This document shows, one piece after another, positions 1-7,608 of a DNA stretch of 10,681 bases. A program made the position numbers and the translations under genes. The stretch comes from Phascolarctobacterium sp. (GTDB lineage Bacteria; Bacillota; Negativicutes; Acidaminococcales; Acidaminococcaceae). Under the pieces are notes generated by a model. That model did no database searches. It saw only the letters and a list, made by a program, of their open reading frames with translations, and was not told where the DNA came from. Every line of letters starts with the position of its first letter. Position 1 is the first letter of the stretch. The stretch is taken from positions 1-10,681 of the forward strand of contig JAEDNJ010000041.1 in the NCBI GenBank assembly GCA_016302525.1. Reading direction: 5' to 3'.

Positions 1-250
1 CCTCGCCATTTTTGAAAATCATTACTGTCGGCACGAGCAATACCTGATAGCGCACAGCCAAGTCCATAGCCTCATCTATATTAATCTTGCCAATAACCAG
101 CTCTTGACCATATTCCTCGGCAATGGCATCAAAGGTGGCTGCAATGCGCTTGCAATAGGTGCACCAGGGAGCCCAAAATTCTACCATAACTGTCTTTTCT
201 TTTTCTTGCAATACTAATTGCTCAAAGTTTTCGTTATTGATATTTAACAT
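1..250 (-). CDS. trxA: Thioredoxin, N-terminal 83 residues (3' end outside window)
   Basis: This is a cytoplasmic thioredoxin-fold protein, expected to reduce protein disulfides. The start ATG at 250-248 follows a near-perfect GGAGGTGA ribosome binding site. The visible protein has the thioredoxin active-site context EFWAPWC-TY-CKRI, with redox cysteines at residues 30 and 33, and the cis-proline segment VPTVMIF (Pro74). The frame runs off the window at base 1, so about 20-25 C-terminal residues are missing. The dipeptide between the cysteines is Thr-Tyr rather than the Gly-Pro of classical TrxA, so redox potential or partners may differ. The N-terminus has no signal peptide. A family member other than canonical TrxA, paired with a dedicated reductase, is possible; the flanking gene is not visible. 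Family assignment is secure, the exact symbol less so. Confidence 0.9.
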   Translation of the reverse strand, partial: MLNINNENFEQLVLQEKEKTVMVEFWAPWCTYCKRIAATFDAIAEEYGQELVIGKINIDEAMDLAVRYQVLLVPTVMIFKNGE

Positions 251-415: not shown

Positions 416-443
416 TTGCTTTTTCCTGAAAATATGCTATAAT
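416..443 (+). promoter_or_regulatory. Extended -10 promoter of the repeat-containing RNA
   Basis: TATAAT at 438-443 is preceded by TGC (435-437), a perfect extended -10 element. A weak -35 match, TTGCTT, lies at 416-421 with a 16-base spacer. The predicted start is about 450. The upstream DNA (360-415) is A/T-rich. No gene of ordinary size follows on the plus strand; the transcript would run to the terminator at 846-883. Confidence 0.75.
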
Positions 444-511
444 ATAGTCAAGAAGTAAGAAAGAAGCACAACCCAAGAAGCCAAGGCTTCCGCTGGGATT
501 AAATAGAGCAA

Positions 512-810
512 GGCTTGATTCCAATGAAAATCTTACAGTTGGCTGCAAGTACTTAGGAAAGGGGTGAGTCCGAAAAAATAGTTAGTTGTTTTCCGGATTA
601 TGAAAAGAAAGGCTTGATTCCGATGAAAACATTACTCTTTGACTAACATCAATTAGTAAAGGGGATAGTCCAATGAACAAATTAAGCTGAACTTAAAATT
701 TCCAAGAAAGGCTTGATTCCGATGAAAATATTACTCATTGACTAACATCAATCAGTAAAGGGGATAGTCCAATGAACGCTTTTAGCTAAACTAAAAATTT
801 CAGAGAAAGG
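512..810 (+). repeat. Tandem 99-bp repeat array (three units plus the start of a fourth)
   Basis: Each unit begins GGCTTGATTCC (GGTTTGAAGGT in the last). Units start at 512, 611, 710 and 809, exactly 99 bases apart. Units two and three are very similar over their first ~65 bases, both containing GACTAACATCAAT and AAAGGGGATAGTCCAATGAAC. Unit one keeps the flanking motifs (GGCTTGATTCCAATGAAAA; AAAGGGGTGAGTCC) but differs in the middle. The motif AAAGG-N6/7-TCC-N-ATGAA occurs twice per unit, so each 99-mer may itself come from duplication of a ~50-base half-unit. The three inter-unit distances are identical although the 3' part of each unit has diverged, which suggests selection on length or recent duplication with substitutions only. 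Confidence 0.85.
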
Positions 811-847
811 TTTGAAGGTTATGAAAATCTACAGAGGCAATAGTTAA
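524..847 (+). other. Array of six very short ORFs, each behind AAAGG at fixed spacing
   Basis: Six ATG codons each follow an AAAGG by exactly ten bases, a fair match to the 16S 3' end if AGAAAGG pairs. They open: 524-556 (MKILQLAAST), 623-646 (MKTLLFD), 673-690 (MNKLS), 722-745 (MKILLID), 772-789 (MNAFS) and 821-847 (MKIYRGNS). A seventh AAAGG (558-562) has AAA instead of ATG at the equivalent place. The last stop codon (845-847) touches the 5' arm of the terminator. Start, spacing and stop positions are kept between units. However, the two copies of the heptapeptide differ by two non-synonymous changes, so selection on peptide sequence is not evident. They may be real leader-type peptides, or the AAAGG...AUG elements may matter only as RNA. 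Nothing here has been shown to be translated. Confidence 0.35.
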
Positions 848-883
848 GCCGTCCGTATCGAGAAGAAAATACGGACGGCTTTT
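846..883 (+). terminator. Intrinsic terminator of the repeat RNA
   Basis: A perfect 13-bp stem, AAGCCGTCCGTAT (846-858) with ATACGGACGGCTT (869-881), closes a 10-base loop and runs into TTTTACTTTT on the plus strand. On the minus strand the same hairpin is followed by AACTATTGCC with no T-run, so it is mainly a plus-strand terminator, though it also sits just beyond the ecfT stop and may protect that 3' end. Confidence 0.9.
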
Positions 884-887
884 ACTT

Positions 888-1556
888 TTAGATCCTCTTA
901 ATCCAAAAAGGATAGGTGCTCAGCACTACAGCTATGAGCAGCACGAAAAAATCGCCTATGCCCAAAGGCTCAGTAGGCATATTCTTATAGGTGTTTTTAC
1001 CAAAGCCCTTTAGCTCCATAGAAAGTGCCAGAGTTTCAGACTTGGCAACCGCACGCATAACCAAGGGGCGAATAACAGTGATATAAGCCTTAAAGCGTTT
1101 AATAATGCTGCCACGATTAGAATAGCCACGGCAGGTTTGCGCATCCAGCGTAATTTCGCTATCCTTTAAAAAGTTAGGCACAAAGCGCAGGGCCGTAGTC
1201 AGCATGAAGGCATATTCTACAGACAAATGAAAACGGTCTACTAAAGCCTTAGCAATGTCCTGAATACGGGTAGAGGCCAAGAGGCATAAGAAGCTCATGG
1301 TCATAACCATCATGCGCAGACCACCGAAAAGAGCCACCTGCAGCTTAGAACCGCACACTAGCTGCAGCAAAATCATCAGCCCAGTAAACACCGTCAGACC
1401 ACCAATGGCAGTCAAGGCCATCTTATCGTGCTTAATACACAGCAGGGAGACAATCTCCAGCACCAGCAGCATACCTACAGCCTGCACGGGCAGAATAAAT
1501 ACCCAGGCCGTAATCAAAATCGTAACGACAATTTTCGTGAAGGCAGTTAATTTCAT
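888..1556 (-). CDS. ecfT: ECF transporter transmembrane component EcfT
   Basis: EcfT is the membrane scaffold that couples ATP hydrolysis by the two EcfA subunits to the substrate-binding S component. The 222-residue protein has hydrophobic segments near residues 8-40, 46-68 and 75-96, a central cytoplasmic helical region, and a C-terminal segment at about 200-218. This is the usual CbiQ/EcfT plan. The two coupling-helix motifs that contact the ATPases appear as AQTCRGY (139-145) and SMELKGFG (179-186). The second normally carries Arg before Gly-Phe-Gly and here has Lys, a conservative change. The ATG overlaps the upstream ATPase stop by four bases (ATGA, 1553-1556), indicating translational coupling. 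It is the last gene of the operon; its TAA lies at 890-888, immediately beside the convergent terminator. Confidence 0.92.
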   Translation of the reverse strand: MKLTAFTKIVVTILITAWVFILPVQAVGMLLVLEIVSLLCIKHDKMALTAIGGLTVFTGLMILLQLVCGSKLQVALFGGLRMMVMTMSFLCLLASTRIQDIAKALVDRFHLSVEYAFMLTTALRFVPNFLKDSEITLDAQTCRGYSNRGSIIKRFKAYITVIRPLVMRAVAKSETLALSMELKGFGKNTYKNMPTEPLGIGDFFVLLIAVVLSTYPFWIKRI

Positions 1557-2362
1557 GCTTTGCCACCTGCCCTTCTTTCGATTTTGGCAACTAATTCCGC
1601 AGCATTGTCTGCCTTGAGATTTAGCGCCCCAGCCAAGGTCAGCACAGTGGGTCTATACAGGCCCCAGTTCTCTAGGGGCTTGGTGCCGTCAAAAAGCTCT
1701 GCCGGCATGCCATCAAAGGCCAGCTTGCCCCGGTGCATAACCAGGGTACGCTTAGCATAACGCGCCGCAATTTCCATATCATGAGTAATGAGAATAATAG
1801 TAATGCCACGCTTTTCGTTAATCTCACGCAGGTAGTGCATAATACGCTCCTGCTCTAGCGAATCCTGACCATTCGTAATTTCGTCTAAAATCAGGGTTTT
1901 AGGGTTCAGCGCCAGGGCTGCAGCCACGCCTAAACGCCGCTTTTGCCCGAAGGACAGCAATCGCGGATAAGCATTGCGCAGCTCTGTAAGGCCCGTAGCC
2001 TCCATAGCCGCCTCCACATGACGAGCCACATCAGTCTCTGCCACCTTGCGTGTACGCGGACCGTAGGCAATTTCGTCAAAAACCGTATCCTCTAAAATTT
2101 GCAAATCAGGATTTTGGAAAACATAGCCAATCTTATCGACTAAATCAGCAGGCTCCATCTTAGCAATATCATCACCATCTACAGCAATGACACCGCTGCG
2201 CGGATGACACAGAGCCATGAATAAACGGGTCAGCGTAGTTTTGCCGCTGCCGTTATGCCCCAAAAGGGCAATAAATTCCCCGTCCTGAATCGTTAAATTA
2301 ATATCGTGAATAACAGGCTCACCTCGCGTATAGGCAAAGTTCACCGCCCTTGCTTCTAGCAT
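1553..2362 (-). CDS. ecfA: ECF transporter ATPase EcfA (variant signature LSFGQ)
   Basis: This is one of two cytoplasmic ATP-binding subunits powering the ECF importer. The 269-residue protein has Walker A GHNGSGKT (35-42), Q-loop VFQNP (Gln83), Walker B LILDE with catalytic Glu161, and H-loop ITHD (His194). The ABC signature is LSFGQ (136-140) rather than LSGGQ. The segment after Walker B reads ITNGQD where PTSGLD is usual. All catalytic residues are otherwise present, so it should be active within an asymmetric heterodimer with the neighbouring ATPase. The C-terminal ~45 residues extend past the nucleotide-binding domain, as in other EcfA proteins. Its start overlaps the upstream ATPase stop by one base (TGATG at 2362). 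The labels EcfA1 and EcfA2 cannot be assigned with certainty from sequence alone. Confidence 0.92.
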   Translation of the reverse strand: MLEARAVNFAYTRGEPVIHDINLTIQDGEFIALLGHNGSGKTTLTRLFMALCHPRSGVIAVDGDDIAKMEPADLVDKIGYVFQNPDLQILEDTVFDEIAYGPRTRKVAETDVARHVEAAMEATGLTELRNAYPRLLSFGQKRRLGVAAALALNPKTLILDEITNGQDSLEQERIMHYLREINEKRGITIILITHDMEIAARYAKRTLVMHRGKLAFDGMPAELFDGTKPLENWGLYRPTVLTLAGALNLKADNAAELVAKIERRAGGKA

Positions 2363-3222
2363 CAGTCAGCCCTCCCTTCCAAGTTAAAGGTTCTAAAATC
2401 GCTAATCGCATCTGTCTCAGTGCGCCAATCGCCCAAATCCAGGCTCAGCTTTTGCTCAAGGCCCAGCTTAACCTGCCACAGAGGAGGGAGCAGCTGGCGC
2501 ATTTCCTCGTCCTCGTAGAGCTGACGGGCAGCAGCTGCAAAGGGACCATGGGCTACAATCTCACCCTGCTTAATGCCAATCATATCCGTAACAAAGGGCA
2601 GCAGATAATCTACACGGTGCTCTACAGCAACAATCGTCGTGCCGTACTGAGCGTGCAGTCTGCCAATAAGCTGATACAGATTATAAGCACCATCGGGGTC
2701 CATAGCCGAAACAGGCTCATCCAAGATAATAATGTCAGGATGTACAGCCAGCACAGAGGCCAACAAAAGGCGCTGTCTTTGGCCGCCAGAAAGCTCATCC
2801 AGCTGATAGGTTTCGCGCCCAGGCAGGCCCACATCCTCCAACGCCTGGCTTACGCGTGCAGAAATTTCTTCTACCGGAAAGCCGTGGTTAATGAGACTAA
2901 AGGAGATTTCCTCGCCCGCTGTCATAGAAACGAGCTGACTTTCATAGTCCTCCATAATAAAGCCAATCTTCATAGCCAGGTCGGACACCATCTTACCCTG
3001 GGTACTCGCGCCTTCGATTTCCACTTCACCAGCATAGCGGCCACCGCTATAGAAGGGCACGACGCCCGTCATAGCCTTGCACAGAGTAGTTTTACCAGCA
3101 CCGCTAGGGCCAACAATAACCGTAAAGCTGCCCTTAGGAATTTCTAAATTAATATCCTTGAGCACCAGTCCGCCCTTTTTATATCCAAAATAAAAATCCT
3201 TTAGCTTAATTGCAGTTTCCAT
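2362..3222 (-). CDS. ecfA: ECF transporter ATPase EcfA (canonical LSGGQ)
   Basis: This is the second ATP-binding subunit of the importer, 286 residues. It shows Walker A GPSGAGKTT (38-46), a Q-loop glutamine at about residue 96 (YESQL), a canonical LSGGQ signature (144-148), Walker B IIILDEP with catalytic Glu169, D-loop SAMD and H-loop VEHR (His202). The C-terminal ~60 residues extend past the nucleotide-binding domain and are rich in charged and leucine residues. It pairs with the downstream paralogue, which has diverged at the signature. The start ATG overlaps the S-component stop by one base (TAATG at 3222), so the two are translationally coupled. A second, longer plus-strand reading frame over this gene is only its antisense shadow. 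Confidence 0.93.
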   Translation of the reverse strand: METAIKLKDFYFGYKKGGLVLKDINLEIPKGSFTVIVGPSGAGKTTLCKAMTGVVPFYSGGRYAGEVEIEGASTQGKMVSDLAMKIGFIMEDYESQLVSMTAGEEISFSLINHGFPVEEISARVSQALEDVGLPGRETYQLDELSGGQRQRLLLASVLAVHPDIIILDEPVSAMDPDGAYNLYQLIGRLHAQYGTTIVAVEHRVDYLLPFVTDMIGIKQGEIVAHGPFAAAARQLYEDEEMRQLLPPLWQVKLGLEQKLSLDLGDWRTETDAISDFRTFNLEGRAD

Positions 3223-3800
3223 TATTTATCCTCTTCCTCCTGAACATAGAACAACCTCTTAACAGGAGCTGTCAGTACCTGGGCAATGACACAGTTAACG
3301 CCAGCAACCATGGCCACAACGGGCAGCATACCAAAAATCCACACCTTTAAGGGCAAGCCCAAAATAAAGAGCAGGATAAAGGTAAAGGAGCCACCGCTGG
3401 CCATCGTGCCGCAAAAGCAGCTCAGGAGCGGACGGAATTTAAAGTTGGGCAAGCCAAAGGAATCCAGCAGTCTCAAGACTGCCCAGCAGGCTACGGCACC
3501 AGAAAAGTCTGCCACCAAATTGCCCAAGGGAAAGGCAGATTTAGAGGAAGGCACAATAATAACGCCGGCAATGAAGCCCAGCCCCATGGCCTGCTTCAGG
3601 CTCAGCCCGCAAATGTTGATGACAATGCAGTACATAGCAATGCCCCAGTTTGGCGTTACCGGTCCCAGCTGCGGGGAAACTGTGTGCAGAATAATGCTGA
3701 TGGCCAAGAGCATGGCTGCCATAGCTACCCAGCGATAGCGGTCCTGGGTATTTTCTATTTCAATGAGCTCAGGAATAGGTTTATTTTTTTGTTCTTCCAT
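3222..3800 (-). CDS. ECF transporter substrate-binding S component, substrate unknown
   Basis: This 192-residue integral membrane protein opens the ECF operon. A charged cytoplasmic N-terminus (about 1-24) is followed by roughly six hydrophobic segments (near 25-45, 52-70, 72-92, 97-113, 125-148, 156-178) and a charged C-terminal tail. Size, topology and position before two EcfA and one EcfT identify it as the substrate-binding subunit. The stretch ILHTVSPQLG ... TPNWGIAM ... SAFPLGNLVADFSGA reminds me of tryptophan-type (TrpP) or ThiW-like S components, but this is memory-based and not a substrate call. Membership in one operon with A, A and T suggests a dedicated (group I) importer. The short leader (~24 nt) leaves no room for a riboswitch that would reveal the ligand. 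The start is supported by GAGGTG four bases before ATG. Confidence 0.82.
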   Translation of the reverse strand: MEEQKNKPIPELIEIENTQDRYRWVAMAAMLLAISIILHTVSPQLGPVTPNWGIAMYCIVINICGLSLKQAMGLGFIAGVIIVPSSKSAFPLGNLVADFSGAVACWAVLRLLDSFGLPNFKFRPLLSCFCGTMASGGSFTFILLFILGLPLKVWIFGMLPVVAMVAGVNCVIAQVLTAPVKRLFYVQEEEDK

Positions 3801-4365: not shown

Positions 4366-4657
4366 TATATAAATACTGCCGACCTATTTCCTAGAACAAA
4401 ACCTTCTGCAAAACTGCTTACTATTTCCCAGAGCAAGTCTTTCTAAAACTGCTGTCCTTGTTCCTTGAACAAAACTTTTTTTAGCAGAGCTGCTTACTAT
4501 TTTTATATGACCTCAAAACATGAAAAAAGCTAAAAACCACTATCCATTTTCTATAACCAGTATTTCTGCAAAACTGCTTACTATTTTCTAGAACAACTCT
4601 TTTGGCAAACTGCCGTCTTTTATAAGTTGTCACAATATGAAAGCAGCTAAAAAAACA
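4366..4657 (+). repeat. Degenerate ~36-40 bp tandem repeats between folD and the VanZ-like gene
   Basis: About seven diverged units are seen on the plus strand, starting near 4385, 4422, 4458, 4498, 4546, 4582 and 4618. The consensus begins TATTTYCTAGAACAA, has a CTTNTGCAAAA middle and ends CTGCTTAC or CTGCCGTC. A partial unit end, TACTGCCGACC, precedes the first. Most units are 36-40 bases; the fourth (48 bases) is more diverged and resembles the seventh (both have ATATGA..., AGCTAAAAA). Units contain short palindromes such as TTCTAGAA, GCAAAACTGC and TTGTTC-CTT-GAACAA. The copies are too diverged for a CRISPR array. The stretch has no credible gene; a 79-codon minus-strand frame through it is composed of the repeat. 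Transcribed from the minus strand, it would form the leader of the VanZ-like gene. Confidence 0.7.
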
Positions 4658-7499: not shown

Positions 7500-7541
7500 A
7501 AAAAAAACAAAGACCGTCCAGGCAACAGAGCCCAGACGGTC
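7500..7541 (-). terminator. Riboswitch expression-platform terminator before fhs
   Basis: On the minus strand GACCGTC-TG-GGC (7541-7530) pairs with GCC-TG-GACGGTC (7523-7512) around a six-base loop, followed after TTTG by an eight-T run (7507-7500). The 5' arm includes CCGUCUGGGC, the conserved 3' segment of the ZTP aptamer, so aptamer folding and termination are mutually exclusive. This is an ON switch by transcription antitermination. Confidence 0.93.
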
Positions 7542-7600
7542 GGCATTTCAGCAATGTGGTCCACGTGGTCAATTCCACTTATCCGTCAGTTCCACATCGG
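7530..7600 (-). promoter_or_regulatory. ZTP (pfl motif) riboswitch aptamer controlling fhs
   Basis: The aptamer senses ZTP/ZMP, the purine intermediate that accumulates when 10-formyl-THF is short. On the minus strand, P1 is ATGTGG (7597-7592) with CCACAT (7559-7554). The conserved AACUGACGG loop strand lies at 7591-7583. A GUGG/CCAC hairpin (7578-7575 with 7568-7565) follows. After a short linker comes GCCGACCGUCUGGGC (7544-7530). GACGG in the loop can form the expected pseudoknot with CCGUC. The arrangement matches known pfl RNAs, including the variants with ACUGACGG and GCCGACCGUCUGGGC. Its position before fhs is among the most common for this class. Confidence 0.95.
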
Positions 7601-7608
7601 ATAATTCA

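Follow-up and report, generated by a model that had tools for sequence, protein, structure and literature searches.

A tandem array of seven start-like units before a terminator in a Phascolarctobacterium-like bacterium: a possible decoy RNA

Bacterial sponge RNAs are known to titrate proteins (CsrA, Hfq) or small RNAs. CsrB and RsmZ are stand-alone RNAs in which a single binding motif, found also at gene starts, recurs many times. CrcZ, the Hfq/Crc decoy of Pseudomonas, copies sequences found at translation starts and carries repeated A-rich Hfq sites. The type III antitoxin RNAs (ToxI, CptI) have short tandem repeats and a terminator.

The locus described here lies in a stretch of 10,681 nucleotides (the window) from an uncultured Acidaminococcaceae, Phascolarctobacterium-like bacterium. 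It is an array of seven tandem start-like units before a terminator, and none of the units leads into a real gene. Like CsrB/RsmZ, it presents many copies of a gene-start motif in a predicted stand-alone RNA. Its motif, however, is a whole Shine-Dalgarno (SD)-plus-start unit in a linear rather than a hairpin-loop setting: the array has AAAGG-N10-ATGAA and no strong repeated hairpin, where CsrB/RsmZ have ANGGA in a hairpin loop. With CrcZ it shares copies of start-region sequence, but the array repeats SD and ATG and CrcZ repeats A-rich sites. SD-led frames of 5–10 codons are common to the array and to minigenes or leader-peptide ORFs; here there are six in tandem and no downstream gene on the same strand to regulate in cis. 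Short tandem repeats and a terminator are also found in type III toxin-antitoxin RNAs. This class was rejected because no toxin was present among the ten neighbour proteins scanned and the gene that follows, ecfT, runs on the minus strand.

The preliminary description had invoked the CsrB principle. As an analogy, a CsrB-like principle is possible for the array. CsrA itself is an unlikely target, and a CsrA sponge was set aside: CsrA (PF02599) was found in none of the 59 genomes of family relatives searched, and the control genomes were positive. An Rfam search, proposed there as a check, revealed no family at gathering score in the array, which argues against a known RNA family; the only such match in the window was a ZMP/ZTP riboswitch. 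At a relaxed threshold the array gave five weak matches, all far under the cut-offs. The name "unclassified repeat RNA" thus fits as regards the repeats and the lack of an Rfam family, while the RNA is a prediction.

Structure of the array and its borders

The 99-base periodicity noticed earlier is exact. Positions 605–703 and 704–802 are 90% identical, TRF likewise gave a period of 99, and a 29-nt core repeats at 505, 604, 703, and 802. Our analysis refines this, since the 99-nt unit consists of two half-units of 49/50 nt. With three or fewer mismatches, AAAGGNNNGANTCCNATGAA occurs seven times (at 509, 558, 608, 658, 707, 757, and 806; spacings of 49, 50, 50, 49, 50, and 49); 200 shuffles had 0.33 occurrences on average and never more than 3. 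The half-units alternate between an A type (AAAGGCTTGATTCCGATGAAAA) and a B type (AAAGGGGATAGTCCAATGAAC). The features of the array, all on the plus strand, are as follows.

435–443, plus strand: extended -10 element TGCTATAAT, a pattern match; transcription start expected at about 450
472–497, plus strand: predicted 5' hairpin, CCCA/GAAGC pairing with GCTTC/TGGG, seen in the MFE and centroid structures alike
509–557, plus strand: half-unit A1; SD, ATG at 524, frame MKILQLAAST
558–607, plus strand: half-unit B1, AAAGGGGTGAGTCC; ATG lost; a GTG at 564 would yield VSPKK
608–657, plus strand: half-unit A2; SD, ATG at 623, frame MKTLLFD
658–706, plus strand: half-unit B2; SD, ATG at 673, frame MNKLS
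707–756, plus strand: half-unit A3; SD, ATG at 722, frame MKILLID
757–805, plus strand: half-unit B3; SD, ATG at 772, frame MNAFS
806–845, plus strand: half-unit A4; spacer diverged and without TCC; SD, ATG at 821, frame MKIYRGNS
846–895, plus strand: intrinsic terminator; perfect 13-bp stem (846–858/869–881), 10-nt loop, then TTACTTTTAG

The common plan of the half-units is AAAGG-N10-ATGAA, that is, an SD and a start codon. AAAGG-N10-ATG is found in six of the seven units, and A1 reads CAAGG; the ATG is absent from B1 and the TCC from A4. Across the seven there is no variation in AAGG, in one A of the spacer, in the A that begins the ATG column, in the two A's after that column, or in a single T of the tail. 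Six half-units have an open frame after their ATG, of 10, 7, 5, 7, 5, and 8 codons, closed in order by TAG, TAA, TGA, TAA, TAA, and TAA.

A protein-coding tandem repeat (99 = 3 × 33) was rejected. The only start-to-stop frames of at least 30 codons that touch 505–845 are both on the minus strand, at 351–548 (65 codons, touching the edge only) and 582–680 (32 codons), in agreement with the earlier statement that the region holds no normal gene. A CRISPR array was also discarded: the would-be "spacers" repeat along with the units, and there is variation within the 20-nt motif. The array is the sole plus-strand item of the window. Every gene is on the minus strand, including the two that flank the array, the thioredoxin gene and ecfT, whose opposite orientation had been correctly described.

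From the promoter-like and terminator sequences we infer that the region 450–885 specifies a short plus-strand RNA. The terminator has the 13 bp first reported; its stem is perfect, and a T-rich tail stands beside it on the plus strand only. A simple terminator scan omitted the 846–881 stem because its loop limit was 8 and the loop here has 10 nt. The 3' end of ecfT, on the minus strand, is at 888. Read in the minus direction, the stem beyond it is not followed by a T-run, and read-through from ecfT would give an RNA antisense to the whole array.

The promoter at 435–443 is plausible. We do not go further, since extended -10 elements of the TGCTATAAT type are unremarkable by chance (0.42 expected per window; at least one in 70 of 200 shuffles), the -35 is weak as judged by eye, and a sigma-70 scan of the window did not have this site among its promoters. 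The element itself is present as had been described, but "textbook" was too strong a word for it.

The repeated motif and the gene starts of relatives

A model of the seven half-units, built from sequence only, was searched in the window and in 59 Acidaminococcaceae genomes. In the window it recovered all seven half-units, with E values from 2.9e-10 to 3.5e-6. In the family it had matches at E ≤ 1 in 48 of the 59 genomes (best, 0.0036); filters in this search were tighter and scoring covered about 100 candidates per genome, and weak matches may be missing. Among the family matches listed, no two were close together on one strand.

Among the best 30 family matches, an ATG was at the expected place, or no more than 4 nt from it, in 27. 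In 22 of the 30, the frame that it opened ran for 40 codons or more; the remaining eight were L300, L305, L307, L310, L314, L317, L318, and L321. The base rate for such frames at ATGAA sites of the same loci was 85 of 201, a value that is raised because the loci surround genes. A Pfam scan of ten of the 22 proteins behind the matches found a family in nine (the protein of L293 was without one): radical SAM with a B12-binding domain, rubredoxin, NlpA lipoprotein, metallophosphoesterase, two of the transaldolase family, HisI/E, desulfoferrodoxin, and prepilin.

Because the best matches in relatives are mostly real gene starts, we read the repeated motif as a translation-initiation region, the ordinary gene start of Acidaminococcaceae. 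Its SD can pair with the 16S tail and lies at a working distance before the start, with weak core pairing in A1–A3, and its occurrence at real gene starts of relatives extends to the 22 of 30 best matches given above. The "multi-copy binding sites" of the preliminary description are indeed one repeated site, but that site is a translation-initiation region (AAAGG as the SD, ATGAA as the start), which had not been named.

One gene start in a relative, that of a B12-binding radical SAM gene at L294:1501–1543 (AAGGTTTGATTTTTATGAAAACATTATTA), bears a close likeness to the A2 unit. A start of this kind may have been the kind of source from which the amplified start came.

The 16S tail of three family loci reads GGATCACCTCCTTTCT. 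AAAGG can pair with its CCUUU, and the spacer TGA.TCC with GGAUCA. For six units, however, 2–12% of shuffled spacers paired as well, and for A4 72% did, so that the extended pairing of the spacer with the 16S tail is no more than suggestive. The core anti-SD energies were -3.1 to -3.5 kcal/mol in A1–A3 (random 20-mers: mean -2.7, sd 2.6), -5.3 in B1, -6.2 in A4, and -7.9 in B2 and B3. The nine scorable genes of the window had -5.6 to -13.8 kcal/mol, and eight of them were stronger than every array site; ftsW was left out, its start being too near the window edge. The weak SD energies of the array are evidence against a strong ribosome trap.

In the predicted ensemble, start regions were less paired than the RNA average in all seven units and SDs in six of the seven, and spacers were more paired than average in all seven. 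The plus-strand array without its terminator folded no better than 60 shuffles (z = +0.7), and including the terminator it had z = -1.5. The minus strand folded slightly better than shuffles (z = -1.3). A conserved fold was rejected on the plus-strand score without the terminator and on the weak RNAalifold consensus of three units (-4.1 kcal/mol).

Decoy, duplication, and other readings

The reading that we prefer, tentatively and at less than even confidence, is that the array specifies a decoy RNA that titrates whatever recognizes gene starts. Each unit would display what the cell's own gene starts display, so that something recognizing gene starts would bind it and be titrated. The recognizer might be an antisense sRNA or an RNA-binding protein aimed at gene starts, or 30S subunits; with frames of 5–10 codons, a ribosome would be released at once. 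Several points favor this decoy: the number of units (seven, never more than three in the shuffles), the gene starts found among the best matches of the unit model in relatives, the lack of a protein-coding alternative, start regions that are less paired, a self-contained unit with a strong terminator, and an SD-to-ATGAA block spared by differences. Against it are the SDs, weak in A1–A3 and in all seven units weaker than those of eight of the nine scorable genes, the no more than suggestive longer pairing with the 16S tail, the more paired spacers, the lost ATG of B1, and the lack of a second example in the sequences searched.

The sparing of the block was seen in three comparisons. The two youngest copies have 10 differences, and every one falls outside the 40 positions that run from SD to ATGAA (P = 0.004). 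The first and second units differ at 50 of 99 positions, 12 of these within the SD-to-ATGAA blocks (P = 0.0007), and A4 differs from A2 at 29 of 49 positions, with only six differences among the first 20 (P = 0.0007). All three P values are biased, since the block was partly picked out by its own conservation. The value of 0.004 is the least biased because the A–B resemblance that defines the block predates that duplication. In-frame stops in the tails occurred at about the chance rate (P = 0.06), and so we make no claim of selection for the mini-ORFs or their peptides.

Almost as likely as the decoy, and near-equal to it in our judgment, is neutral tandem duplication. According to this explanation, slippage or unequal exchange multiplied a copy of some gene's start at an intergenic site peculiar to the lineage, and the constant step and surviving SDs and ATGs reflect recent copying and not use. 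It agrees with the 90% identity of the middle two units, with tail stops near chance, with SDs in A1–A3 no stronger than background, and with an ecfT-adjacent slot that differs in all the relatives read. No other array was found in the genomes and contigs searched, which also favors it. The fixed inter-unit length had been taken to suggest function; the spacing is constant at 49/50 nt, but the argument is weak because recent tandem duplication fixes spacing as well. The sparing of the SD-to-start block speaks against it. Amplification alone would leave unexplained the 13-bp terminator that closes the array and the extended -10 ahead of it.

If the decoy reading is true, the array would be an RNA consisting only of translation starts without genes, and such an RNA would lend itself naturally to titrating the initiation machinery or its regulator. 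If the array is neutral, it illustrates that amplifying a gene start may yield something that looks like a purpose-built regulatory RNA, which calls for caution in RNA discovery from sequence only. A step of 49/50 nt might leave room for one 30S initiation complex. By analogy, the array might be a dedicated ribosome sponge, a translational counterpart of CsrB, lowering free 30S or a start-recognizing regulator under particular conditions; the spacing would then let each start hold one such complex. We consider this version unlikely.

It is improbable that the RNA is a polycistronic message whose product is the micro-peptides of 5–10 residues (MKILQLAAST, MKTLLFD, MNKLS, MKILLID, MNAFS, and MKIYRGNS). 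There are six SD-led frames with stops, and between B2 and B3 the stop changed from TGA to TAA and was kept. However, the peptides are altered by the two changes between the frames of A2 and A3 and by the clustered ones that separate B2 from B3, the stops are close to the chance rate, and no maturation or export gene was present among the ten neighbours scanned. Also improbable is an element that acts as DNA or from the minus strand, with the repeats as protein-binding DNA sites or with the minus-strand read-through of ecfT as the functional RNA (such read-through is possible because no T-run follows the terminator stem on the minus strand). Direct repeats with a constant step and the slightly better minus-strand fold (z = -1.3 vs. 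+0.7) agree with it, but the step does not correspond in any obvious way to whole helical turns, and conservation falls on the columns of a plus-strand SD and start codon.

Occurrence of the array and its neighbourhood

One array is known so far: no second was found in the family, by patterns in Negativicutes, or in viral contigs. With positions 430–900 as query, blastn gave no match in phages or plasmids and none at E ≤ 0.01 in seven genomes of the genus; the best E value among the 59 family genomes was 0.011. A strict three-unit pattern, which does match the window, was absent from the 59 family genomes. Its relaxed form, which also matches the window, was present in 43 of 380 Negativicutes genomes, compared with 25 of 380 for the reversed control. 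Thirty loci were examined among the 49 relaxed matches listed, and none had a chain of at least four mini-ORFs. One of the loci, L347 (about 1501–1612), has a duplicated stretch inside a coding repeat, RTX-like by eye, that mimics the three-unit pattern.

A TCC double pattern had three matches in the window and none in viral contigs, and a looser version matched the window alone among 355 sequences. In viral contigs, the loose pattern gave at least 120 stretches, and only L230 and L280 formed chains among those examined; two one-unit patterns gave 1 and 101 stretches, all of them single sites. In a non-random sample of 352 sequences (2.3 Mb), four or more SD-led mini-ORFs followed one another in a chain in the window and otherwise only in L230 and L280. 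These two viral contigs have low-complexity tracts of 7-nt and 21-nt repeats (L280:4096–4600, L230:150–350) that give SD-ATG-stop chains. A literature search of titles and abstract openings, together with part of PMC6429828, returned no description of such an array, a result that does not establish absence from print.

The gene order of the window is thioredoxin, array, ecfT, two ABC ATPases, a TrpP-like S component, VanZ-like, folD, fhs, PASTA penicillin-binding protein, and FtsW/RodA. EcfT is 78–80% identical to that of the Phascolarctobacterium MAG loci L001 and L002 and 89–92% identical to four sequence-database entries; over the ecf genes, the nearest genomes compared are 72–73% identical to the window. 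The ECF transporter operon lies at 888–3800 (minus strand). Its S component matches TrpP (PF17099, 30.1 bits; cut-off 27.2), which suggests tryptophan uptake.

The divergent thioredoxin gene is at 1–250 (minus strand). Among the 59 family genomes its product had no match at E ≤ 1e-20, although this threshold is strict when the query has 83 residues. In a large database 39 homologues were found at E ≤ 1e-12, the best with 75% identity over 78% of the partial query. The slot adjoining ecfT was different in all relatives read, and no array was present 3' of ecfT in 16 relatives, in the parts read (L008 and L009 partly; L012 ends early). The scan for mini-ORF chains and the looser TCC pattern covered the DNA of these loci throughout and gave no array there. 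This end of the window, with thioredoxin and array, looks lineage-specific, because thioredoxin is without a family match at the strict cut and no array was seen in the ecfT-adjacent slot of the relatives read. In L001 the slot holds what, judged by eye, resembles a toxin-antitoxin pair.

Two further elements were observed in the window. A second tandem repeat, degenerate, with a period of 37 and 2.5 copies, lies between the vanZ-like gene and folD (4384–4475). The ZMP/ZTP riboswitch (7523–7603, minus strand; 57.7 bits, gathering 39) is upstream of fhs, which encodes formate-tetrahydrofolate ligase, a common arrangement.
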